Source: Ceratodon purpureus
Taxonomy: Eukaryota > Streptophyta > Bryopsida > Pseudoditrichales > Ditrichaceae
DNA: 64,000 nucleotides
Assembly: GCA_014871385.1 (NCBI GenBank)
Contig: CM026431.1
Span: 4,997,089 to 5,061,088, forward strand
Direction: 5' to 3'
In this document: one piece after another, positions 4,869-63,447 of the stretch
Layout: every line of letters starts with the position of its first letter
Numbering within the stretch: the first letter of the stretch is position 1
Position numbers and translations under genes: made by a program
Notes under the pieces: model-generated
Told to the model about the DNA's origin: nothing
The model's database searches: none
Seen by the model: the letters and a program-made list of their open reading frames with translations, nothing else

Positions 4869-7541
4869 TTAGTGACGCAAATATTTGAGCAGGTCATCGC
4901 AGATCGTTTCAAACGAAGGCCGCTCCGCTGGATCTGGATCGCAACACCTCTTAACAATATTCTTCACAAATTCTGGTGTATCCTTTGGAAGCGGCGGTCT
5001 GTCTCCGTCTCTTAGTTTTTTCTGAAATTTACTGCCCAAAACACATCTAGAGTGTCCACCATGGACAAGAGGGTCAGACATGCATTTGAGAGCCTCCCCG
5101 GGTGATACTCCTGTCAAGACCTCTCCGAAAACTAAGCCAAAACTGAAGACATCAGCTTTGTACAGGTCGATGTTCTTCCTGTTATACACATCTGGATCCA
5201 TGTATTCAGTAGTTCCTGCTATGGAAGGTGATAGTACAACACAATCCTCGACCTTCAAAGCTTCACCAAAGTCGGCCAGCTTTACAGAGAAATGATCTGG
5301 AAGATGTTGTGTCCCTGACACATGAGTATACAAGATGTTCTGAGGTTTGAGGTCCCGGTGCACAACCTTAGTACTGTGTAGATACCGTAATGCCTTGGCC
5401 ACTGGAAGTACAAGGCTGATTGCGTCCGAAGCAGGAAACCCCGTGGTGCCACCCCGTAGACCGTAAAACGACGTCGATTTGCTTCTCTTGTCGAGATGTT
5501 CTTTTAGATTACACTCCATGGACTCCATTAAGAGAAGTTGTACCATTTTGATTGTGACTTCCCAGTACCCAACCAATCCAACAGTGTACGGATGGCGGCA
5601 TTTCTTCATGGTGTTCGCTTCGCTCTGCAGTCTTTGATCGGCCGGTCCCTCCCACACTAGCTCTGGTTCCTCACACTCTAATTTAGCTCTAGGTTTGCTC
5701 CAACGCATCTTCACAATAAATTCTTTGCTAATGTGTGTGACTCGGAAGACAACAATATCCGGCTGATCCTTGGTTATACCAGGCTTACTATATATTATTG
5801 GAGTTTTGTCAAAACTGAAGTCTGTCACATGCTTGCTGATTTCAGGTGGGGCACTGACAGATACTGGTTCCTCCATCAATTGGTTTGCAAGGTAATGTCC
5901 ATGTCCATATTCGCTTTGCACCTTCCTCTTTAACTCTGTCTTATCAGACTTACTAGCAGTTAACATATTCTTCACAACTGTCTCATCGATAATACCCGTT
6001 CCGTCGAATGGGTTGACACCTAGATTGGTGGGATCAATGATCAGCCTATGCAAATCAAGAAGAACCTCACGGAAATGTTCTTGACAGTTACCAAGTTCCA
6101 CAGCTTTGAGGAGCCAGTTCTGAGTACAACAATCTTGCACCAATTTCAATGCATTTCGGACCGCGCAATATAATTCTCGAAGAACAAAATGTTGTCGTGC
6201 GAATCTGGGCTTGCATAAACTCGTCAGACGTTGGCATTCCGCACTCAAAAGTTGGCACTGGCTTCTGTTAATCTGCAGAGATCCGTGACTCTTCGTGATC
6301 TCATCGACAGCCCACAAAAGACATCTTCGGCATCTCTCCGAATTCGGCGGCCCCACTGAGACACGCAAGCGATCTAAAACATAAATCCAGATAAGAATCT
6401 CACAATCAGACTCAACCTGGATAAGCAGTGGAGTGCAGTTCCAGTAAAAAATTCTTGAATGCCTTAAAAACACACGCAGCTAACCTGTGAGCCTATGTTA
6501 GAATCTCACCTCACACTCAGAAGATGCTCAACACTTACAACTACGGCTTTAAGATTGCTCTTCAACAACTCATTGATCCTCTAATAATAAAGAGTAAATT
6601 TCCACAAACATAGCAAGGAAAACAAAAATTCTCACATTCAAGCCATTCTACAGCTAGTGGGAAACTAAGAGTTTGCCAACCCTGAGAAACATGGTTTAGC
6701 GCCAATCTAATTGTGCTATTGTGAAGTTTTAGCATCAAAATTTGCGAAGTCATCAGAATGGTTACAGACATTTGTCATTGGCAAATTTGGAGCACCACAA
6801 ATTCTCCAGTTTGCTATGATGGTATATCACATTCTCCACTTTATATCTGTAACCATTCTGATGACGCTGCATTCGTAGAGGGTTGAATAGGTTTGGCTAA
6901 TGGAACTGTCCACAACTTGATTGAAACTGTGCACGCGTGAAGACCATTTTGCCATTGTTTAGCCACATCCTTGAAACACAGTATGTGGCGACCAAGAAAC
7001 AGATCGTGCAGAGGACGCTTTTCCATAATCCCATTGGCTGCAAATATGCCACAAGAAGAAGCCTTAATAAGAGAACTCTACATAGCATTACATATTTAAA
7101 ACTATTGAATTCTCAACAGTACGAGCACTGCGAAACAAAAATGACAACCAGGTGATAAAGCCGATGACTAAAAAGAATGATCAGAAGGTGAATTCAAACC
7201 GTGCTTGCTTTTTCAATTGCAAGATTGCTTCAAAGACCAGCAGGAAGTTTAAAGCAAGACATCTATGTTCGAAGTAAAATGTGACTATATGTATCAAACC
7301 CCGAATGAAGTCGAATCCGGGAATGGTGCTAAGATATTGAAGAGTCTCTGAAAACCCTACATCAGTAAGAGGTAAAGAAACACCCAAGGCCCAATATCAT
7401 AGCAAGTGTACCAAACACAAAACTACTGAAACATCAAAAGAAAAAACTCAGAAGACCTACCTCAGCTCCGGACTCTTCTAGAAGGTGCATGGTGGAGAAA
7501 GAATCCCCAGATGCATTGAGAGCATCTAATGTCTGCTCCAT
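4869..7541 (-). CDS. protein kinase with N-terminal MLKL/MCA-like helical module
   Basis: Proposed model: exon 1 7461..7541 (ATG at 7541, MEQTLDALNASGDSF..., donor GAG|GTAGGT) and exon 2 4869..6272 (acceptor CTGCAG|ATTAAC). Both junctions are phase 0, giving 494 residues. Exon 2 is also open upstream to about 6473, but only from a GTG. Residues about 1-110 are helical with Cys and Leu spacing (INRSQCQLLSAECQRL...FVLRELYCAVRNALKLVQDC). This resembles the four-helix N-terminal domain of plant MLKL and MCA proteins (inference). A Ser/Thr kinase domain runs from about 200 to the end: K215 (FIVKMRW), VHRDLKPQN with D334 and N339, and DFG at 361-363. There is no recognisable glycine-rich loop, and the APE position reads DPD. 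Catalytic residues are present, so activity is possible. It is transcribed divergently from the tandem kinase at 9910 and shares its N-terminal module. Confidence 0.8.
6273..7460 (-). other. large intron of the kinase gene
   Basis: Inferred 1.2 kb intron from GTAGGT at 7460 to a CTGCAG acceptor at 6273. An alternative acceptor (TTTTAG near 6372) would add about 30 residues but does not match the phase of exon 1. Open frames inside (around 6841-7088) have no recognisable similarity. An extra small exon cannot be excluded. Confidence 0.5.
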
Positions 7542-8726
7542 TATCCTGTTGATAAGCACATTAAACCAAACATCAATGAGTCAGAATTTGAACGAGACGA
7601 TTACTAAAACAACTTCATTACAAAAATCCAACGTCGGTAAAAGTTGTCACTATCTATTCTGGGTGCCACGATAAATGGGAGTATGTCCACACAAATAAGA
7701 GCTCACTGTCGGTAAGGTGCACCCTCACAAAATGTCCGGAAGAAGCAAAGGGGGAGGCTGTGAAATGAAACGAGACTGTTCTAAGGCAGATCTACTTAAG
7801 CCTTTCAACCGAAAGCACACAGGGTGACTTGGAGAGGCAGAGCCTAGCGGTGAAGGTTACGCAATAACGCACCAGAAGCACAGATGGTCATTACAGGATA
7901 TCTGTGTCGCAATCTGCACATCCAGGTCCTGCAAATCTGTGATCAACTAGCAATCTCTCATTTACAATAGTGGTTAGACTCGACGGAACATCCAAGACCG
8001 CAGTCGAAATGTAGTAAGCTACCAGGTAGAATGGTCCAAGGAAGGTAGAATGGTCCAAGGAAGGTAGAATGGGTTCAAGGACAATCCTTCAGACATGTCC
8101 AATCAGACTATGCCGAAAAAACCCAGAGGCATGATGGGGGTATTATTCTAATCTTACAAGGCTTCAGGATGCCTCCAAAATGGAATCAATAAAATCATAA
8201 AAAAGTGCTACTTGGAGGAGTACGGTGTGGAGAAATTATGGAACCGACTTTGACAAAGTGGGCAGTGTAGAGCGATTTCGGGTGAAGGTGCTCTTTCCAG
8301 CAGCAATGGCGGTCAGTCCTGCCCGGCTTCCCACGTCGTCCACAGTACCCGCGGTCTTTGCTACCGATTCTTCGATTTAGATACTGTAGTACCTCGCACA
8401 GCTTGCTTTAGTTCGCTACTAGGGTTTGGTCATATACCGCTGCACCATCTTAACTTCAATCCTTCGATGTATGCAACTTCCGTTCTCACCAACCACTATT
8501 TTACTTCACCAAACCTTGGCACACTGTGTCTGATCCTGGAATAATCACCTTCTCGGAGACATTCCATAGCCCGCAGATTGGATATTTTCGCACATGACAC
8601 GGAAGGAGTTGAAATCGGCTGTGGGCAAGTAAGACCCAGAGAAGGTGTCAGTTTACGTTTGAGCTCTTACTGTGGAATCATGTTAGAGGTTATGTATGAT
8701 CTTACGTGCCAGTAGTTGGGGTTTAT
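7542..8726. promoter_or_regulatory. divergent intergenic region between kinase gene and small spliced gene
   Basis: About 1.2 kb between the kinase start at 7541 (-) and the first candidate coding exon at 8727 (+). An AACAG acceptor-like site just upstream of the 7541 ATG suggests a 5' UTR intron for the kinase. A 19-base unit is repeated near 8025-8080. No coding sequence was recognised. Both promoters probably lie here. Confidence 0.45.
8025..8080. repeat. short tandem repeat, 19-bp unit
   Basis: The unit GGTAGAATGGTCCAAGGAA occurs at 8025-8043 and 8044-8062, with a third, diverged copy from 8063. It lies inside the divergent promoter region. Confidence 0.85.
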
Positions 8727-9894
8727 ATGCAGGACTCAAGGGTGAGTGTCTGCTTTTTTTTTTTTTTTTTTACAACCTTGAAAGTATGCCAGGGATCAAG
8801 GTGTGCACACAAAGAACGTAGAAAGACGTGTGTTGCTACTCATTCTGTCGCTGGAAGCAAATTTTTTCGCTCGTAGTATGAAGGTCGAGCTATGTGTTTG
8901 ACAACCCTAAGTGTTTCTGATTAAAAATTTATGCATTGTTGATACGACAACCTCTGAAAAGATCATACGATCTGATAGATTGTGTTGCTGCAAGCGGAAG
9001 GCGTGGCCGTTTGTGAGAACTGAAGGTGATCGGGACCAGCTGTTTCTTGTCTAGAAGTCTCACTGCTTTGTTACTTATGATTCAACTTAAATATCGATTC
9101 AGTACCGATGGAAGTCCCAAGTGAATAGCTTTGTTGTGCCTCCTACAATCACCTTACAACGGTTTATGATCGCAGCAGCTTTGTTGGTCTTTGTTGTGCA
9201 GATCTGCCCAGGGCTGAGAGGAAGTTCCGTTGAGGTTCAGAGAAGGTTGTACTACAGGAAATTTATTAGAAAAAACAACCACGAGTGGCATCTAACCACA
9301 AAGGTGACAGAATTAAAGGTTCGTTCTGAATACATTACAGTATATGAGTTGTGCACCATTTGCTTGACTGGTTGTGGAGAACTGCTGCATCGGGGACCTC
9401 CATCCCCTTCGGCCTCGTGTTGCTCTCCAATTGTGTGATGGCATATTGAGGCCCATGATCACCATGGCAGCCAATATTTTTGATTTGTGTTACTAAATGG
9501 AAGAGTTTTCTGAAACATGTAGTGGAGTGCTGTTATGTGTGAGGGATGGTAATGTGTTGAACAGCTTTGAAGAGAACTGGGAGAAGGTTTAGGACTTTTG
9601 TCTGGTCAGAGGGCTTGTTCTTTAAAGCTTGTAAAGGATGTCCCTCTCATACTTGATCACACTGAATAAATTTGTAACGATAGATCTTTGATTTTGTTCA
9701 GGATTCTGAGAGTTGAACTGCTGGTTATTGCCATGTTTTATTAACAATATGGTTTTGACTCCCAGGTCACTGCTGTATTGGACAGTCAGATTGGAATAGC
9801 TAGGCCGGGACGATTCAATGCGTTTGCAACTTCTCTATTTCGAGGCAGAAAGGTCTATCCAGGGCCAGGTTTAGCAACTCCATTCGTGTGGTAA
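8727..9894 (+). CDS. candidate small spliced gene, signal-anchor protein of unknown function
   Basis: Proposed exons 8727..8741, 9103..9303 and 9766..9894 (114 residues plus TAA). Exon 1 codes MQDSR and ends in a consensus G|GTGAGT. Exon 2 enters after GATTCAG and codes YRWKSQVNSFVVPP, then a hydrophobic stretch MIAAALLVFVVQI. Exon 3 enters after CTCCCAG and ends ...GPGLATPFVW. All junctions are phase 0 and the frame stays open through about 110 codons. The hydrophobic stretch at about residues 27-41, behind a basic tail, suggests a type II signal anchor; an internal ATG at 9169 would instead give a cleavable signal peptide. No family was recognised. The stop lies only 15 bases before the ATG of the next gene, so this could be an upstream ORF or leader of that transcript, or a truncated gene. 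Existence is moderately supported; function is unknown. Confidence 0.45.
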
Positions 9895-9909: not shown

Positions 9910-12900
9910 ATGGATTACGTGAATAACAGCATCCATTCTATAAGAAACTTGCGAAGTTGGGCCCACTTCATTACACAATTTCCGCCATCTGTGATCGAAC
10001 ACAAAAGGAGGAACAATAGTCAGTTCTTGAATTTGTTGGAACAACTCTGGGGCACAGAGAACTTGCTGTGCCATCTTTCTAGTCCGACATTGAAAACATA
10101 CAGGCTGTTACTGCGAGAGCTTGACGATGTGATAGGAAGGGCCATTGCTTTAGTGAAGGAGGTCTATTTGTGTTCTGAGCTCCCTCGAGAGCATTACTCT
10201 GGAGAACATTATCTTGAATTTTTTCTGGAATTGCGGTGGTGGACATGGGTGGTGATTTGTGTAGTGGCTGGTGGATTTATAAGGACCACATTCGGCCGGG
10301 AATACTTTGTGATACCCAAGGGTATATTGGATCCCGCATCTTCAAGATTACCAAGCTTTCTGCAGAAACTGCATCTGTGGTGTAGTGGTTCTGATGGTTA
10401 TGCAAGGCACCTGCCATCGTATGGAATCGAGGCGTTTCTGCGGAAGGCCGAGGGACTATCAACGCTTAGTGTATGGTTGAAGACTACGAGCGGAAGACTC
10501 TTGAACGAATCTGATGTCGACACGGAGTACATCATAGAAGGGAAGGCGTTGGTGCCAGTATCAGGTGCTTACAAACCACCACGGGTGCGAGAACGCAAAG
10601 TTGATCTAACGCAAGTTATCCTGGGAGTGAGTCATTCAGCATTGGTTATCAAATGCGAAGACTCTGGAACAGAATATGCTTTGAAGAGAGTGAACGGTTT
10701 GGATCTAAAGCAACCCATCCTTGCGCACCTCTTCCATCCACATGTTGTTCGACTATTGGATTTTTGGAGAGAGAATGGTTTCTTGTTTTTGGCGATGGAG
10801 ATGATGGAGGGGGATCTTGCAGAACTCATAGCAAGGCGTTTAAAAGAATCGAAAATGCCATTTACGATGGATGTGGCAGTCGACTTCATGTTGCAGATTG
10901 CCAAAACTATGTTGTATCTTCACGATTTGGGTCTCACGCATCCTCATCTCCAAAGTTCTGATGTCTTGTTTAAAGTAGCCAAAGATAAATCCAGGCTGGG
11001 CAAGAATGATAGTCATTATCTTTTGAAGCTAGGTGACTTTCGGTTTTATGCAAAGAATGATTTTAAGTCAGTGACCCGGCAGAATGTGTACCAATTTGGC
11101 TTGATCTGTGTGGAAATACTATCCAATGAGCCGTTACGCTGGACGTTTGAGGAGAGAATACTGGGGATGTCTCAGAAGCCAAAAGTCTGTTTTGATGCAT
11201 TGCGGAATGGATCTCAATCTTCAATACCAGGATTGTTGACCGAGTGCATTGGAAAGTGCTTAAATGGAACTACCCAATTCTCTGAGGTTGTCGTAATGCT
11301 CCTGCTATCGCAACTCCAAGTACTGACAAAGGCTGCAGAAGAGCCTTCAGGTGGTGAACACCTACCGCTTGCCAAGCAACAAGGTATGGTGATTTAGGAA
11401 AACTTGAGTAATAATTGAGTTATGTTCAGAGTCTAGTATTATATTAGCTAGCGAGTATTGTTAAATGCATCTAGTGCACTTGAAAATTCAGAAGATTCTT
11501 AATGTGTCGTTCCAAATTTTGCCAGATGTTTCGTCAAGGCCAGGATCCTCTTCAAGGTTCCCCATTATTCCTGAGGTATGATTTCTACAAAACATGAATT
11601 TTGTATAGTTTACCGGGTCGACATTTTGTGTAAGTCATGAATTTGTTTGGCAGGGTGACTGGCAGGCAGACCGATTGCCTTTATCAGAAGAGCGAAGAGC
11701 GATGGTAGGCACAAGCGGATGCTCGCGCCAGTTGGGATGTCTGAAGTTGTCCGATACTTCGTGCGCGACAAGTGGGTCAGATGAGTCGGCTAATGTCAAG
11801 GCACCTCCGAGTGAAGTTCATCCTGTGAGTGCGTCTAGGTCGTTCTTATCTGGACGGAGTGAGAGCATAATGGAGCAAGAGGAGATCCGTGTGGTATACA
11901 GTGCTGGTATCAGTGAAGGGAAGCGGCGGACCAAGCGGCGGAGTATTGCAGTGAAGGGGCGGATCAAGCGCTCCAAGACTCACTGGAGCACTCCAAAGCG
12001 GTACAAGACTCACTGGAGCACTCCAAAGCGCTCCAAGACTCACTGGAGCACTCCAAAGCGCTCCAAGACTCACTGGAGCACTCCAAAGCGCTCCAAGACT
12101 CATTGGAGCACTCCAAAGCGCTCTAAGATTCACTGGAGCACTCCTGCGACTGGGTCGAGTTTCATATCTGCAGTGGAGGCGCGTATCGAGCGCTCCAAGA
12201 CTCACTGGAGCACTCCTGCGGCTGGGTCGAGTGGCATATCTGCGGTGAAGGCGCGTATCGAGCGCTCCAAGACTCACTGGAGCACTCCAAAGCGCTCCAA
12301 GATTCACTGGAGCACTCCAAAGCGCTCCAAGACTCACTGGAGCACTCTAGCGGATGGGCCGAGTGGTGCTGGCATGGCTGAAGACGAGGATGGCGAAGGT
12401 GAGTGCGAGGCCGAAGAGAGCAACGTTTTTGAATTCATGCACCCCACTTGGAGTGGATCCGTATCTGCAGTGGACACTTGGGGTGGATTCGCATCTGCAG
12501 TGGAGGAGCGTATCGAGCGCTCCAAGGCTCACTGGAGCACTCTCGTAGATAGGCCGAGTGGTGCTGGCATGGCTGAAGGCTGGGATGACGAGGATGACGA
12601 GGATGCCGAAGAGAGCAACGTTTTTGAATTCATGCAGCTGCAGCGCCACCCCGAATGGGGTGGATTCTTTCGCACATTTGGGTATGAACTTAAGAATGGA
12701 AGATACCCAAGTCAAGGTGCGTTGGAGATTGGGGAGAAGTTTGCAGAGGGTGGGCAGGCGGAGCTCTTCCATGCCAAGGTCACATGGGTGCATCCAAAGG
12801 ATAATGAGATGTTTGAGAGAGAAGGAGTTGAGTTTGTATTGAAGGTGTTCAAGAAGGGGACATCCTTGCGAGACATGAAATATCAGTGGCCCAATGGAGT

Positions 12901-13669
12901 GTTTCAAATTCAAGTGGAGGAAATGGAAAATCTGAAGTCCCCTACACCCAAAGTGACCCCAAGCCACTGTTGCGAAGCACTTCAATGTATATTGTTGGAG
13001 GATGGTCGATTTGCATTTTTGATGGAAAAGTTTGATTTTGATCTCCGGAGTTTGATTATACACATGGAATTGAGAAGGGATGGAAATTGTGGGCCATTTT
13101 CAAAGGAGGATGGTGAAGTCATGATGTATGATATTGCATTAGGGGTGGAGTGGCTCCACAATCGCAACATCATTCACAGGGATCTAAATACATCAAATGT
13201 ACTCCTGAAACAATTCAAAAGTGGATGGCCAAAGTGGCGTTGTTTTGTAGCGGATTATGAATGCACCATTGGGGTTGTTGGAACGGGATATTTTAGGGCA
13301 CCGGAGATATTGCAAGCATGCAAAGAGAGGATGGAAAGTCAAATACCGGAGGTGTTTTCAAGAGCAGCGGATGTTTATGCTTACGGGATGACTTATTATG
13401 AGGTATTGACAGGGAAGGTGCCTTTTGAAGATCATCCACTTAATATGTGCAAGCCTTTGTTGACGGATCTTGTGATCAATCAAGGCCTACGTCCAGAGAT
13501 ACCAGAATTTGTTGAAGGTTGGGCACGTGGACTATTGAAATGGTGTTGGCAAAGTGATCCAAGTGCAAGACCTACGATAGGAGAAGTATTGGAACTGATG
13601 TCAAAAAATTCAACATCTATTAGAAGGCTAGAGAAACTTGTGGACGGTGAGGAACTAGGGACATTTTGA
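9910..13669 (+). CDS. tandem pseudokinase-kinase with helical N-terminus and repeat linker
   Basis: Three exons join in frame: 9910..11383 (donor AAG|GTATGG), 11526..11575 (GCCAG acceptor, GAG|GTATGA donor) and 11654..13669 (TTGGCAG acceptor), giving 1179 residues. Residues 1-110 form a helical module like that of the divergent kinase gene (NNSQFLNLLEQL..., LLLRELDDVIGRAIALVKEV), followed by a hydrophobic patch WWTWVVICVVAGGF at 110-123. Residues about 235-470 are a kinase fold that keeps K259 (YALKR), but HRD reads HPH (344-346), the catalytic-loop Asn is Asp351 and DFG reads DFR, so it is a pseudokinase. Residues about 610-800 hold a basic/acidic linker with the THWSTP repeats. The second kinase domain runs from about 860 to 1165, with K905, HRDLNTSN (D1018) and APE kept, but DFG reads DYE at 1042-1044. 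Likely a signalling protein in which the first domain regulates the second (inference from known tandem kinases). Confidence 0.85.
11384..11653 (+). other. introns 1 and 2 of the tandem kinase gene, with a 50-nt exon between
   Basis: Intron 1 is 11384..11525 and intron 2 is 11576..11653, both GT-AG. The 50-nt exon at 11526..11575 codes DVSSRPGSSSRFPIIPE once the split codon is completed. Without these introns the locus would look like two separate genes, the first ending at a stop inside intron 1. Confidence 0.8.
11966..12546 (+). repeat. coding minisatellite, 30-bp unit (KRSKTHWSTP)
   Basis: Six head-to-tail 30-bp units run from 11966 to 12145, all in frame. Five further copies, alone or in pairs, reach 12546, separated by longer units containing GSS-ISAV-ARIE. 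There are about eleven copies of (K)RSK(T/I/A)HWST(P/L). A second, longer unit (GPSGAGMAE...EESNVFEFM) also occurs twice between 12357 and 12640. Units differ by only a few bases, which points to recent expansion. The repeat encodes part of the linker before the second kinase domain. Confidence 0.95.
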
Positions 13670-14294
13670 AGTTGATATTTGAAAATGGATGTTAAAGATG
13701 TTCATATCTTGAATACATAGATACGTAGTGTAGAAAGTATTATGAAGTAGAGTCGGCAAAATTTGTCATAGACCGTGTTCTATATATTCTAAAATTTAAT
13801 TGCTATTTGAGTGGTTTACTTAACTAAAAGTCTAATGACATTGGTAGATTGAAGGTATTGGAAGCGTTAGAAGTATTGTTTTGGTGATGACATTGTAATG
13901 AAAGGATTTCTTTCTAAATGGAGGTTAGGTTAGAAGAGATTAATGTTTATATTTTCTATGAGTGTAGGTAAATGATTTTTAAATCTATATTTGTATGAAT
14001 GAAATTTATTTATTTTTACAAATATTTTATGAATCAGGTGATAGTTGGACTATGTTATCAGCGACTAACTTATTTATCTCCATTGTTTGTTGTCACTTCA
14101 TACTAGAAATATTTTGCACTATAAAATTGAATGTAATTAGATGGTATTAAATGTTAGATCAATCATGATGGTTGAAGTTGATTTTGTAAAATTCAATGTT
14201 GTTTTTTTCATTTCAAACAATGCAAACTTGATGTGCCTTAATTGTGAATTTTCTATAATGCAATAACTTTGATTCTTTGGCACTTTAACTCCTA
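13670..14294. other. AT-rich 3' flank of the tandem kinase gene
   Basis: AT-rich sequence following the stop at 13669, with no open frame of interest. It probably contains the 3' UTR, but no polyadenylation site can be fixed. Confidence 0.5.
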
Positions 14295-29223: not shown

Positions 29224-30979
29224 CTAGCTGGTGTCATACGTGATCTCAACCTTGGCGAACTGCACGGGCTGGATAGTGGGCCCGAACTGCGCAAGCGTGA
29301 CGACGATGTCGGACAAGTTCTGCTTCCCCAGAGCGACGAGCTTGGAATCCAACGCCACTCGCCATTTGCGGTTGCGGCCCTTGAAGATGGCCATGCCGGG
29401 GTGCGCGACGTAGTTGTACGCCCCGGCGAACTCCGGGCACGCAGCGGAGGTCCCCGTGACCGCCGTGGGGTAGAAGAGGTACGACCTCCAGTGCACTTGC
29501 ATCGAGGGCTCAGCGAAGTCGACGCCCGAAAACTCTAGAACCTCCACGCCAGTGCTGTTACGCACCGCGGGACGTGCGACGCGGAACGTGATGGGGTCTT
29601 TAAAGAAGACGGTGTCCGGGGAGAAGTAATCCGCGGCGCCGATCATGGCAGTTGTCTCGGCTGCGGTCGCGGGGTTGCACAATGTCACGTTGTTCTCTTG
29701 CCCCGCCAGCTCCCCGTTCGTCGTCCACGCCGCTGGCATCTCCTCGTACTCATACCTGCCAATCCATGGTCGGACTTGCACTTGAGCCCAATTCACAAAA
29801 CATTTTCATGAAAGCATACATCCGCATTATTGATACATCTGGAATGATCGAAAACCGAGGAATGAAAAAGAGCTGTAAATGAATGGATTACCGAAGAAGA
29901 GTGCGGTTTAACGTCTGGGAAACATTCACGATAACCAAATCGGCATTCTCGTCGTAGAACGTGAACTGAGCGTCGAGAAAATCCGGATGGGTCGGCTCCT
30001 TGCGCTGCGCGCCGGGGAGCGTCTTCCATATTGTCCAAATCCTGTCAATATTCACGTGGTGCCCGTAGAAGGCTGGATCACGAGCGGCGACGCCGAAGTT
30101 GCCCATGTCGTCGAATGGGCCCGCGGGTTTCTCCGGATTGGGATCCCCGAGCCAGAAATGCACGGTGCCATGGGGGTTATCCTCGAATGTCCCGGCGCCC
30201 GTGGCTCCAGCGTCGCCATAGCTGTATGGCATGCCAAAGAACAAGTTGGACGTTGGGGCGCCTGTCACGATCTGCGTGTAGATGAGCCGGTTGTTCTGGA
30301 TGCGGAGCTCCTCGGGGGTTTTGGTCGTGCACCCTCCCTCGGTGTTCAAGTCGATCGTTAGCGGCGGCTCGGAGCAGTTGTTGCGGTTCTTGTTCCAGAG
30401 CGACGACGTCTTGTTGCGCGCGTAGAAGTAGGGAAGTATGTTAGCGTGTGGCTCCTCCGGCGTCTGGTTGTCCCAGTTCCAAAACGGCAACGCGAATGTG
30501 TCATCGTCAAGCAGCTTCGCCAGGATCCTCTCGTTGAAGTACATGAACATGCGGTGCCACGGCAGGAAGAGCCACCCGTTATGCACCTCCAGCGGCCATG
30601 TCTGGTTGGGATAGTACAACCCATTGTCGCAGTAGAGACAGTGCAGATTCATTTGGTTGGTCCACGATCGTGGGTCGGTGTCTGGGAGCTCACGCTGGAG
30701 TTTCACCCCGCGCTCCAGCTTCGCAATGTACTCCTCGTCGATCAAATGCGCCGCCCGCCGGAAGCGCACAGGCAGCGTCGGGTCGTACTCAAACTGACGC
30801 ACCGGTTTACCTCTGTATGGCCGCGGCATGCAACAGCGTTCCTCGCTGTTGCAATTATCAGGCAAATCAGGTGCTGGAATCGGCACCGCGCTCGTGAACT
30901 TCACCATTACCATCACCAAAATCATCCCGACTAGCCCAAAATTCCACCGACAACCACTATGCTCCCGAAATCCCGCCAT
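29224..30979 (-). CDS. PPO: polyphenol oxidase (catechol oxidase/tyrosinase family), secretory
   Basis: Type-3 copper enzyme oxidising o-diphenols to quinones. Two exons, 29892..30979 (donor TTCG|GTAATC) and 29224..29755 (acceptor TTGGCAG), join at phase 2 to give 539 residues. The ATG at 30979 gives MAGFREHSGCRW followed by a hydrophobic core GLVGMILVMVMV, a secretory signal; the twin-arginine plastid transit peptide of seed-plant PPOs is absent. CuA ligands are H113 (NLHCLYC, with thioether Cys C117), H133 (EVHNGW) and H142 (PWHRMF). CuB ligands are H270 and H274 (NPHGTVHFW) and a His in YGHHVNIDR (307-308). The middle DWL region and C-terminal beta domain are present (VEVLEFSGVDF, KRKW-type FKGRNRKWRVALDS). 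Several NxT/NxS sites fit glycosylation. It looks intact. Confidence 0.95.
29756..29891 (-). other. intron of the polyphenol oxidase gene
   Basis: 136-base GT-AG intron between the tyrosinase domain and the C-terminal region. The flanking coding phases match (2 + 1). Confidence 0.9.
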
Positions 30980-33900
30980 GGCCACGATTCGGAGCAGAAC
31001 AGCAATCAATAAGTCAAACAGCAGTTACATTCATATCAATGAACTAGAATAGTGTTGAGGTATCATGCATCTTCAGTGATGGATATGGAAAATATGTCAG
31101 GGACTGGGACAGAGGGATTGCGCTGTATGTTGATGAAGGTCGCAAAGAACTTCGAAGCTCTGCCCAGTACTTGTTCTGTTTCTGTTACTAGGGTTGTGGA
31201 GACGGGGACAGAAGAGCAGCGCTGAGATTGAGCAATCTCAGTTGATGCTGGAGCGAGAGTCGAGACAACGTCTAGTACTGTACTCAACCTGGCTTCAGAT
31301 TGTTATCTCTTGGGAGGTAGCGACGATTCCAGATTCTGCAGCTGTCGGAATACGACTGGTGATCGATGCGATCGAGTATTGTTTAGCAGTGCAATAGCAT
31401 GGTTTCCTACTTATGTATCCAATTCATGGGCGTGAATTCTTGCCTGTTAAGCAAATTCTTTGTATGCCCCTTGACTGCAGGAGACGAAAAGGTATCAAAG
31501 CGGCACAAAAGGGGCCCATGGAGCTCGATGGTCGACGGTGGTGTACATGTCGACCCCATGGCCTGCCATGTATTTCAACTTCTCATCATGTCTCCTTTGT
31601 CTTCTCTCCGTATAATCCATAGCTAAGTGGGTTTGATTCGCCGTCTAAGCCTAGCGTAACCATTGACCAATATTCCAGAGACACTGCAGGTCTAATCCGA
31701 CCAATATCAACTCCTAAGTTGATCATGAGGATTATGTATTTCAACAGACCATATGTACTGGAATTAGTGTCTCTCTGGTTCACGTATCGCACTAGGCTAA
31801 TACTTTGGTACACTAGTTCATTATTCAAACACGATGGAATATTCTTGAAGTTAAGTGACCTCAAATGTTGCGCCTGACCGTTGATGTTGTACGTAACCAT
31901 ACGGTCGCACTGGATAGAATAAGCGAAATAATCATTACACTGGCACAGAATCCTTGCCTACAATCTAGAGGAGGGTAAACAAGACTCAAGTTCGGAACTC
32001 AGCTCCAGCGAGGCGTGGACTTGAAACATCTCAATGATGGTATCCGGCATAAAAGAATCCAATTCTTTTCGATAAAGCTGGTTCAACACTGAAGTACATC
32101 GCCCAAACAAAAGCACGATCGTTGTAGACAATTTCAATTTGTCAATTTGTCAATTTGTCAATCTTCAATTCGTCTTTCAATTTTCATTAGGACTCCCGGT
32201 CAAAGGGTCCACTCATGAGTTCGCAATATTATTAAATCACACTGCCGTGGCACAATCCCACTTCCACTTGCTTCTTCAACGCTGACTTTCGACCTTTCTT
32301 CCGATAGAGCCGTCCACTTTCGATGGAGCTGTTGAAGTCGCTGCCAGGCTCACTAGCAAGGGGATGTCCAAGTTGTCTTGTGTGAAGAACTTTATGTGCA
32401 TCGCAAAATCAAGCAATCCCGGGTCGGTTTTTATAGAGTTTCATTGAATCTCCAGTGGCTTGCAAGTACAGGTGAGCTTTATCGATGAAAATAACATACT
32501 GTCCTTTGTGCGAATTGTCAACAAATGGATCACTGCATGCGCTGGTAGTCTCGGAACCCCAAGTTTCGTTAGGGTGCAGAACTCTTTTTGGATATGTCAC
32601 ATGGGCATGAGGCATGCCATAAAGTGAACCAGCTTTGCCACCGCGCGCAAGCATATATTGCTTCTCTAATCTGTCTTCAATTACTGTATGTTTAAGCTAG
32701 ACTGTAACAGTTCAAATTCTTCCAATGTTCTCTTTCAACTGTCATTGAGTTCTTTGCCGAAGATAAGTTGGAATCGGTTCATTAGATCTGGATTTGCCGC
32801 TTTGGAGCTCATATTATGAGTTGACATGTGTTACGAACCTGTTAGGGGAATGTAATGCACAATCTCGTGTCCAGGTGATCAAAGTTTTTCATGATCCACG
32901 TGAGGTCACTAAGGTCAAGTACTAGTAGCGGCTCACAATTGGTGGAGGATGAAGCATGATCTACTACATACATGGCCTCTACAAGGCAAGGCCCCTACAG
33001 TAGAATGTTGAAGGGCTTTTGTGCTTCTTTTGACTTCAACTGGGCGACTCGGATACTTTTCAGAGCTTTACTGGTCACTGTAGGAAGTCGCATTTTATGA
33101 TTCTCACGGGTGTATACCGTCGAATCAGCTCATGATCTGGGTTTGCGAGTTTGCACCGTATCTTTGCTCTTGATGAGTAACAAAGTCACGACGTACGAAC
33201 GAGATCGGATGCCGTATGCATCCAGGGGTGCAAGTAATGACTTTCATGGTTCAGACATCCTCGAAGCCATTAAAAATTGATAAATTTGAGACTTGAGTCA
33301 GGCACATGCAAAATGGAAGGTTTCACTTCCTCCAATTGAGCCTGGACTAGGGAGATTAATGATGAACATTGAACGACCGAGTCTCGAGTGATTGGTGAAC
33401 ATGATGTAACAGGGGAGCAGAAGAAATTTGCAGACTCGCCTTCGAACGGTGATCACAGTCACGGTACTCAACAAGGCGTCATCTCACTTCCACGTCTCTG
33501 CTTGTGAAGGTTAACACAAAATTTAAGTGAAATTGTGTTAATGACAGAAGTTGAATCTGTTTCCCTCTCTCTGTTTCTCTCCGTCTATGTCCATTCGATA
33601 CAAGCTGGAAATTAACAGAGAGAGGGACTAGCAAGATTTCTTGTTCAGATTAACCCACATGGATCAGAGAACCGGACATCATAAGATATGATCATGGAAA
33701 GTGATCACTTGATCACTTGACACTGGGTGGGTGCAACACATGAATAAATGTGATACTGAAAGAGTAGCTATCTTAGTCGGATGTCTGCGTATGCTTTAGC
33801 TGGTGCCACCCGCTGAAGCTCACTAAACTATGATCATGACAACCTAACTTGAGAGAATGAATATGTCAACCAAAACATCACTACACTTGATCAAATCAAT

Positions 33901-52783: not shown

Positions 52784-53958
52784 CTAGTCCTTCGTGATGT
52801 TCTCCCCGGGCGCATTCACCGTGTCCTGGATTGCTGCCGACGCCTCCCCCAATATGTTCTGGAACCCGCCCAACAGCCCCTTCGCACCCTCCTTCGTCTC
52901 CTCCGCTGCGTACCGGGCCTCGTCGCCCGTCACTCTCCCGGCGTGCTCACCGCGTCTCCGCGCCTCCTCGGCCTTCGCCGACGCCTCATTGCTCGCCCTC
53001 CCGGCCTTGTCCTGCACCGCCTCCCCGGTCTCGTCCGCCTTCTCCTTCGTCGCGCCCAGCGCGTGCCCCATCGCGTCTTTCACCTGCCCCGCCTTCTCCT
53101 TCACCGCCTGCCCCGCCGCGCCCGCGGTGTCCTGCACCGACCCCGCGAACTCGCCCGCCTTGTTCTTCGTCTCGCCCCACTTCTGCCCCGCCTCCTCCTT
53201 CGCCTCGTCCACGCGCGGCTGGTGCGCGCTCGCCGCCCGGTCCGCCTCGCCCTTGATGTCGCCCGCGGTGCCCTTCACCTTGTCCCCGGCCTCCCTCGCC
53301 TTGTCCCCCACATTGTCCTTCGTCTCCCTCGCCTTGTCCCCCACATTGTCCTTCGTCTCCCTCGCCTTGTCCCCTGCCCTGTCCACGCCCTCCCCGACCT
53401 TCGACCTACCCTCCTCAACCTCGCCCCGCGCGGCACGCAGCGCGTCCTCCACCTCCTCGTCCGCGCTCTTCACCTGATACTTCCCGGACGACTGGTACCG
53501 GTCAATACCCCCGCTCCCCCCGCCCGTCGACGAGCTGTACGAGCTCTGCGACGTGTGCTTCTCCTCATGCGACTTCGTCTTCGTGGTCACATCAAACTCC
53601 GAGCCCTCGAAGTTCTTCACCTCATGCTTGGTGTCCTCCGAGTCACGCACATAGTTATCCTTGTCATCATTAGTAGGCAAATCCTCCGTCGTCAACACGT
53701 CCGTGTCGATCTTCTGCGTGATGTCCTTCTCCGACCCCTCGTAGTTCGTGGCCTCCTGCACTCACATCCACACCACCAACCAAACATCACTAATTCGACC
53801 AAAATGCACATCCACACACTGACTGCATACGTTTATCCCACAATGTAGCTGGACTACAGCCATAGCGAGAACCCTAATCGATCACAAAGTCTGATCTACA
53901 TTGGCACTAACAGCATCCCCACATGCATATGGAGCCTGGAGCTGACCTTGGTCGCCAT
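52784..53958 (-). CDS. LEA protein with 11-mer repeats (LEA_4/group 3), copy 1
   Basis: A desiccation and stress protectant, thought to form amphipathic helices on drying and protect membranes and proteins. Exon 1 is 53947..53958 (MATK, donor AAG|GTCAGC) and exon 2 is 52784..53755 (acceptor GTGCAG|GAGGCC), giving 327 residues. The N-terminal 100 residues are acidic and hydrophilic (EATNYEGSEKDITQK, KNFEGSEFDVTTK). Residues about 110-270 hold 11-mer units such as AREAGDKVKGT and KDNVGDKARET with Ala/Lys/Glu periodicity, and the end is NILGEASAAIQDTVNAPGENITKD. It has no Cys and no transmembrane segment. Near-identical to the gene at 62309-63447 in inverted orientation, but with one extra KARETKDNVGD unit (33 bases). 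Strong antisense frames in this GC-rich region are shadows. Confidence 0.92.
53756..53946 (-). other. intron of LEA copy 1
   Basis: A GT-AG intron of 191 bases directly after codon 4. The intron of the paralogue at 62321..62508 is similar in sequence and position. Confidence 0.85.
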
Positions 53959-62308: not shown

Positions 62309-63447
62309 ATGGCGACCAAGGTCAGCTCCAGGCTCCATATGCATGTGGGGATGCTGTTAGTGCCAATGTAGATCAGTTGTGATCCATTAGGGTTCTCGCG
62401 ATGGCTGTAGTCCAGCTACATTGTGGGATAAACGTATGCAGTCAGTGAGTGGATGTGCATTTTGGTCGAATTAGTGATGTTTGGTTGGTGGTGTGGATGT
62501 GTGTGCAGGAGGCCACGAACTACGAGGGGTCGGAGAAGGACATCACGCAGAAGATCGACACGGACGTGTTGACGACGGAGGATTTGCCTACTAATGATGA
62601 CAAGGATAACTACGTGCGTGACTCGGAGGACACCAAGCATGAGGTGAAGAACTTCGAGGGCTCGGAGTTTGATGTGACCACGAAGACGAAGTCGCATGAG
62701 GAGAAGCATACATCGCAGAGCTCGTACAGCTCGTTGACGGGCGGGGGAAGCGGGGGTATCGACCGGTACCAGTCGTCCGGGAAGTATCAGGTGAAGAGCG
62801 CGGACGAGGAGGTGGAGGACGCGCTGCGTGCCGCGCGGGGCGAGCTTGAGGAGGGTAGGTCGAAGGTCGGGGAGGGCGTGGACAGGGCGGGGGAGAAGGC
62901 GAGGGAGACGAAGGACAATGTGGGGGACAAGGCGAGGGAGGCCGGGGACAAGGTGAAGGGCACCGCGGGCGACATCAAGGACGAGGCGGACCGGGCGGCG
63001 AGCGCGCACCAGCCGCGCGTGGACGAGGCGAAGGAGGAGGCGGGACAGAAGTGGGGCGAGACGAAGAACAAGGCGGGCGAGTTCGCGGGGTCGGTGCAGG
63101 ACACCGCGGGCGCGGCGGGGCAGGCGGTGAAGGAGAAGGCGGGGCAGGTGAAGGACGCGATGGGGCACGCGCTGGGCGCGACGAAGGAGAAGGCGGACGA
63201 GGCCGGGGAGGCGGTGCAGGACAATGCCGGGAGGGCGAGCAACGAGGCATCGGCGAAGGCCGAGGAGGCGCGGAGGCGCGGTGAGCACGCCGGGAGAGTG
63301 ACGGGCGACGAGGCCCGGTACGCAGCGGAGGAGACGAAGGAGGGTGCGAAGGGGCTGTTGGGCGGGTTCCAGAACATATTGGGGGAGGCGTCGGCAGCAA
63401 TCCAGGACACGGTGAATGCGCCCGGGGAGAACATCACGAAGGACTAG
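62309..63447 (+). CDS. LEA protein with 11-mer repeats (LEA_4/group 3), copy 2
   Basis: Exon 1 is 62309..62320 (MATK) and exon 2 is 62509..63447, giving 316 residues. Domain order and role are as for the gene at 52784-53958, of which this is an inverted duplicate with only a handful of substitutions (for example EE versus GE in RAGEKAR, LTGGGSG versus STGGGSG, QDNAGR versus QDKAGR). It lacks one 11-residue unit (KARETKDNVGD) that is doubled in the other copy. The first ATG after the leader is used; an upstream in-frame extension through the intron is not needed. GC-rich coding sequence, intact. Confidence 0.92.
62321..62508 (+). other. intron of LEA copy 2
   Basis: A 188-base GT-AG intron after codon 4 (AAG|GTCAGC ... 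GTGTGCAG|GAG). An open frame starting at 62449 inside it is only the in-frame read-back of exon 2. Confidence 0.85.

Follow-up and report, generated by a model that had tools for sequence, protein, structure and literature searches.

A 64,000-nt stretch of CM026431.1 from the moss Ceratodon purpureus (the window, whose positions are used below, on the plus strand unless stated) contains two open frames, at 9910-11397 and 11675-13669. They probably form one chimeric gene, in which the output domain of a pseudokinase-hydrolase gene was replaced by a 5′-truncated copy of a kinase gene. The first-pass annotation had read the two frames as a single three-exon gene, and frames, lengths and motifs agree with it: the join gives 1,179 codons plus a stop, in phases 1 and 0, from exons of 1,474, 50 and 2,016 nt, and sequence motifs support the order of pseudokinase then kinase. 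That the gene is spliced as one is supported by comparison with paralogs (exon 2, phases, donor and downstream exons). Two things had escaped the annotation: exon 3 represents a different gene family and brings an ATG of its own, and a hydrolase is usual in the pseudokinase family.

Genome searches covered the window's own assembly (362 Mb in 151 contigs; 13 of those met were chromosome-sized, one of 110.5 Mb), and all paralog comparisons were drawn from this one genome. The gene model comprises the following features.

9910-11383, +: exon 1, 491 codons plus 1 nt, coding for an N-terminal region (residues ~1-230) and the pseudokinase (residues ~235-470); from the open frame, Pfam Pkinase and paralogs
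10939-10947, +: HPH replacing HRD; from the sequence and a six-member alignment
11384-11525, +: predicted intron 1, 142 nt, donor AAG/GTATGG, phase 1; same phase in the four intron-bearing paralogs (104-165 nt)
11526-11575, +: predicted exon 2, 50 nt, end GAG/GTATGAT, phase 0; similar exon in four of five paralogs
11576-11653, +: predicted intron 2, 78 nt, the final ~7-15 nt already part of the kinase copy
11639-14288, +: duplicated kinase-gene segment, beginning immediately before the acceptor and extending ~620 nt beyond the stop; from blastn to paralog loci and alignment of the 5′ edge
11654-13669, +: predicted exon 3, 2,016 nt; 16 codons corresponding to the untranslated part of the paralogs, then kinase-family coding sequence
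11702-11704, +: ATG where the paralogs have their own start codon (MVGTSGCSRQ vs MAGTSGCSRQ)
11966-12347, +: 30-nt tandem repeat, KRSKTHWSTP linker; from Tandem Repeats Finder (TRF)
12650-13666, +: C-terminal kinase region with VLK lysine, HRDLN, DYE and APE

A pseudokinase family with a hydrolase-like domain

The exon 1 frame matched Pfam Pkinase above the cut-off (E 4.9e-14), and its kinase part matched, among solved structures, 6ka4 (E 1.3e-6), listed as F22L4.1 protein, which we take to be an Arabidopsis MLKL. Searched against the genome, exon 1 matched 88 places including its own, mostly with only partial kinase similarity, from which five relatives stood out: L039 on C7 (36% identity over residues 21-482), L040 and L041 on C8, L042 on C4, and L043 on C5. 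A search with the N-terminal region found three places, namely, the window and the C7 and C4 copies, and the start of exon 1, MDYV, resembles MDDYV in the C7 copy.

The replacement of HRD by HPH and of DFG by DFR, which the first-pass annotation had reported, is plain in the sequence. HRD is found in none of the six aligned members, which read HPH (window, L040, L041 and L042), YPH (L039) or HPQ (L043); at the DFG position, DFR of the window corresponds to GFG in four members and to GGG in the C7 copy. In all six members, the stretch between the VAIK-type lysine and the HPHVV-like motif after it looks, by eye, shorter than is usual in kinases. HPH and DFR indicate that the predicted protein has, as expected of a tandem kinase, one domain without catalytic residues.

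The N-terminus had also been called MLKL/MCA-like. We rejected this kinship, and with it a four-helix HeLo/DUF1221 domain, as unsupported: Pfam listed no family for the N-termini of three family members (limit of E 10, with filters that drop most weak matches), and an unrelated protein (E 0.63) headed the PDB profile matches. AlphaFold2 gave exon 1 a helical N-terminus of low confidence, with a mean predicted local distance difference test score (pLDDT) of 37.6, and the kinase a mean of 37.0, both models being too poor for fold comparison.

A phase-1 donor closes the kinase exon in the C4, C5 and C7 paralogs and in one of the two on C8. After the intron comes a short exon (38, 41, 41 and 53 nt in the four, by increasing length), always 2 mod 3 and ending GAG/GTA in phase 0. 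L041, the other C8 copy, shows no intron 1, yet it keeps the GAG/GTA donor, in phase 0 by eye. Since the short exons of the paralogs were picked by eye, shared 6-mers were counted as an extra check. GAGGTA was the only 6-mer common to all six 300-nt regions; it was present in all six in 0 of 2,000 shuffled sets, and any 6-mer was so in 1.9%, counts that serve as a guide and not as a clean probability because the regions had been chosen with the pattern known. A multiple alignment of the six regions lined up the exon ends poorly, that of the window included. The likeness of exon 2 thus appears to be one of position, phase, length class and donor, which supports the assignment of this exon, its phases and its GAG/GTA donor to the pseudokinase family. 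In L042, the short exon and both its splice sites are present twice in tandem (~5180-5290 of this C4 locus). As each copy is 41 nt long, inclusion of a single copy per transcript would keep the frame, and these exons are possibly mutually exclusive.

Downstream of exon 2, all five paralogs have three further homologous exons in homologous order, which read HGF (HGL in C7), GHSFGG, YSVP and DNHFEVCRP, GHSFGG being invariant in the five. The GHSFGG exon was scanned in Pfam for two of the five copies: that of C7 matched DUF676 serine esterase above the cut-off (21.7 vs 20.3 bits), and that of L041 gave only subthreshold matches to PGAP1 and DUF676. Exons 3 and 5, scanned as pieces of the L041 copy alone, had no Pfam match. 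We call the domain alpha/beta-hydrolase-like. When the GHSFGG exon of L041 was searched against the genome, it matched five places, which are the loci of the five pseudokinase paralogs, in each case downstream of the pseudokinase. By these homologies, the window gene shares with the family the pseudokinase exon and the short exon 2 with its GAG/GTA donor but lacks hydrolase exons 3-5: fifteen pieces of the hydrolase exons, compared by tblastn with the whole window, were not found there (best E 0.099 to 0.81).

Exon 3 as a copy of a kinase gene

The exon 3 frame matched the Pfam kinase domain above the cut-off (E 6.1e-22). Among solved structures, the best match of the C-terminal kinase was roco4 (E 1.7e-19), next came an entry named only protein kinase family protein, and 6ka4 (E 4.2e-17) stood behind roco4. 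The genome search with this kinase found at least 122 places, its own included, 14 of which (loci L025 to L038) are 70 to 76% identical to it over ~329 residues. Twelve of the 14 lie on C11 at 6.5-7.5 Mb, 1.5-2.5 Mb from the window, one lies on C77 and one on C2; the score of the C77 copy equals that of a C11 copy. The longest plus-strand frame represents the kinase gene in five of the 13 loci so analyzed (L025, L026, L033, L035 and L037), the gene being on the minus strand in the remaining ones, where the plus-strand frame is something else. Those read appear as stand-alone genes. The start MAGTSGCSRQ is found in L025, L026 and L037 and shared at the DNA level by L029 and L032, and L033 and L035 start otherwise. 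A start of this type, an ERSKxHWST unit and VADYE mark exon 3 as a member of this moss DYE kinase family, and it holds almost the complete coding sequence of such a gene.

The first-pass annotation was right that the C-terminal kinase keeps Lys and Asp and reads DYE. VLK and HRD are present with DYE, in which Phe and Gly of DFG are replaced, and the HRD and DYE aspartates are retained; the C-terminal half may be an active kinase. Two features that had seemed peculiar to the gene belong to its family, however. DYE is found in all 14 aligned rows, the window included, and is thus normal for the 13 aligned paralogs. The THWSTP linker, presented as a novelty, is the family unit ERSKxHWSTLA expanded in frame; each of the five paralogs read has this unit once.

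The ratio of nonsynonymous to synonymous substitution rates (dN/dS) was calculated with 13 kinase paralogs, L027 being excluded as a near copy of L026. Values were 0.47 to 0.64 between the window and all 13 paralogs, and the 78 paralog pairs had a median of 0.46 (range, 0.34 to 0.64). The kinase tree did not single out a nearest paralog for the window copy, with 8 of 12 inner branches open.

In 7 of the 14 loci, DNA homology to the window starts at 11639-11647 (pieces longer than 60 nt), and it reaches up to 14288. Farther upstream, the window copy lacks a region common to the paralogs; this region includes a GTAAG donor-like site, and we read it as a 5′-untranslated exon plus intron. L025, L029, L032 and L037 have TTGGCAG, the predicted acceptor of exon 3. 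Because the copy includes sequence upstream of the acceptor as well as flank beyond the stop, it probably moved as DNA, and the same extent of homology makes a retrocopy origin of the kinase half unlikely.

In two other loci, a single frame holds a pair of kinase regions that belong to the exon 3 family: L046 at 6849-9278 (C5; 809 codons) and L047 at 5849-8362 (C12; 837 codons), in coordinates of the gene orientation. Judging from their sequences, they are tandem kinases made within one family.

One chimeric gene or two neighbors

These homologies suggest how the gene could have arisen. In the moss family of six genes built from pseudokinase, short exon and alpha/beta-hydrolase, one member would have been stripped of its hydrolase exons. 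A kinase gene, copied at the DNA level and cut just upstream of the AG acceptor before its own ATG, would have landed downstream of exon 2; either order of the two events is possible. The retained exon 2 donor would join this acceptor in phase 0, and the pseudokinase promoter would drive a 1,179-residue pseudokinase-kinase. Since the copy lost its upstream part, dependence on that promoter and on the exon 2 donor is the simplest arrangement, and we infer that intron 2 is spliced and the gene expressed.

The consensus splice sites, on which the first-pass annotation had leaned, do not by themselves carry this argument. When the 270-nt gap was shuffled 1,000 times with dinucleotides preserved, an open internal exon of compatible phase arose in 96.3% of the shuffles, and one that scored as well by a simple consensus score in 12.6%. 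Splice sites and phase are weak evidence alone, and splice-site strength was rejected as proof of one gene. An assembly artefact is unlikely: the joint was found once in the assembly, and the kinase half is 76% identical to its nearest paralog.

Several observations weigh against a single chimeric gene. The exon 1 frame meets a stop just beyond the donor (11395), which would allow a short pseudokinase to be made, and the kinase copy retains an ATG of its own, from which it might be produced separately. The acceptor is altered in L026 (GGCAAAG) and absent or shifted in other paralogs. The 16 codons before the ATG are open in the window, but by eye three of the five paralogs that allow comparison (L025, L026 and L037) also have this stretch in frame and free of stops (it is out of frame in L029 and has a stop in L032), so its being open says little. 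The kinase itself shows signs of relaxation: HRDLN is found in the window only, against HRDLK in all 13 paralogs, the C-terminus LVDGEELGTF is unlike that of L025, L026 and further paralogs, which end later, and the window end branch (0.31) is, apart from the outgroup, the longest of the 14 kinase rows, followed by that of L033 (0.30). Taken with the dN/dS range, this long branch suggests a kinase that is constrained but fast evolving.

Part of this evidence would fit two adjacent genes, a stand-alone pseudokinase without hydrolase exons and a kinase translated from the ATG at 11702 under a new promoter in the gap. The ATG is kept with its context, the exon 3 paralogs read look stand-alone, and the exon 1 frame closes unaided at 11397. 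Against this, the kinase copy lacks the upstream region that its paralogs share and starts ~240 nt after the stop of the exon 1 frame; exon 2 and its donor are kept, and further exons follow this donor in all five relatives. We consider this arrangement unlikely. Still less probable, and by a wide step, is a decaying locus in which the inserted kinase copy broke the pseudokinase gene and neither half is now under selected function; the long kinase branch, the loss of the HRDxK lysine, the changed C-terminus and the expanded linker repeat would be in keeping with decay, but all 1,179 codons of the model are still open, dN/dS is below 1 against all 13 paralogs (although pairwise values mix branches), and the splice sites are retained.

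Variation of the output domain

If the two halves form one chimeric gene, its N-terminal region and pseudokinase might form a module for regulation or sensing, which would hold in cis the output domain joined to it, a hydrolase in the rest of the family and a kinase in the window gene. Other members show variation at the same end. In L041 (C8; 6698-9442 of the locus), a single frame of 915 codons runs from the last hydrolase exon into an unrelated, apparently complete kinase (HRDLKAKN, ADFG), well above the Pfam cut-off and only 26% identical to the window kinase over 237 positions. L041 would be the family's second case of a pseudokinase joined to a kinase, distinct from that of the window and with the order pseudokinase-(hydrolase)-kinase. 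AP2 or AP2-like frames, 28% alike, follow the hydrolase exons in L039 and L040 (42.5 and 29.9 bits; cut-off, 33.3), an ankyrin-like frame below the Pfam cut-off lies downstream in L042, and the downstream frame of L043 has no Pfam match. The kinase frame of L041 is probably part of the same gene; the frames of L039, L040, L042 and L043 may be either neighbors or parts of the same gene. We put forward only tentatively, with somewhat more doubt than belief, that the family is a plug-and-play platform, in which a conserved pseudokinase receives exchangeable C-terminal outputs through exon replacement and the combination of pseudokinase and kinase arose twice.

Neighboring observations

Elsewhere in the window, a further kinase gene, in which HRD and DFG are present, lies at 4869-6473 (minus strand); its DUF1221 match is weak and below the cut-off (E 0.47). 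By eye, two very similar LEA-like frames lie in opposite orientation ~9 kb apart (52784-53761, minus strand; 62449-63447, plus strand), and two frames at 29224-31009 (minus strand) resemble a polyphenol oxidase/tyrosinase gene.

Comparison with known systems

The window gene would be a traceable example of the birth of a plant tandem kinase through replacement of output exons and not through internal duplication. An acceptor site beside the start codon of the kinase would ease such a replacement, and plants may rebuild signaling proteins through domain exchange of this kind. The small moss family appears to fuse a pseudokinase to an alpha/beta-hydrolase-like domain, two domains that bryophyte immune receptors carry separately, and makes pseudokinase control of attached enzymes testable. 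Among the open-licence papers listed in literature searches, judged by titles and abstract starts, none dealt with a pseudokinase-hydrolase gene or with such a pseudokinase-kinase order in a moss.

In JAK kinases, a pseudokinase lies N-terminal to the kinase. The window gene resembles them in this order; it differs in that no FERM or SH2 domain is among its Pfam matches, and the likeness would be convergent at most.

A wheat MLKL-type kinase confers resistance to mildew (PMC10951266). Plant MLKL proteins (Pm13, AtMLKL) likewise have a kinase fold behind an N-terminal region, but the N-terminus of the window protein is without a four-helix match.

Tandem kinases are described as having two origins, fusion of different kinase families or duplication, and one predicted tandem kinase-pseudokinase (TKP) was counted in Physcomitrella patens (PMC6170490). 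Like Yr15/WTK1 and RPG1, the window gene would have two kinase folds, one degenerate, in one predicted protein, both domains being assigned by Pfam and their joining in one transcript predicted from the spliced model and the paralogs. It differs in order, since all members that PMC6170490 discusses are putative kinase-pseudokinases and the window gene has the pseudokinase first, and in that its N-terminal half stems from a pseudokinase-hydrolase family. An immune or stress-signaling role, by analogy with plant tandem kinases, is speculative and on balance doubtful.

Bryophyte PK-NBS-LRR and hydrolase-NBS-LRR chimeras are thought to stem from exon shuffling (PMC3352924), and bryophyte N-terminal domains, when expressed, gave cell-death-related responses, those of the moss kinase being modest and variable (PMC11218826). 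The likeness lies in kinase and alpha/beta-hydrolase domains that occur in chimeric genes. At least 121 places with NB-ARC were found in the genome, and neither NB-ARC nor LRR was among the Pfam matches of the halves of the window gene or of the family frames scanned. The window gene may work like such a fusion, but it is not a member of the class of nucleotide-binding leucine-rich repeat receptors (NLRs).

In grasses, fusion of kinases to vWA domains took place at least three times, integrated decoys have been proposed, and kinase fusions with other domains function in resistance (PMC10260399). Lr9 (WTK6-vWA) and Sr43 are like the window gene in that a kinase module is joined to a partner that varies; whereas those proteins add a domain, the window gene appears to have swapped one output for another.

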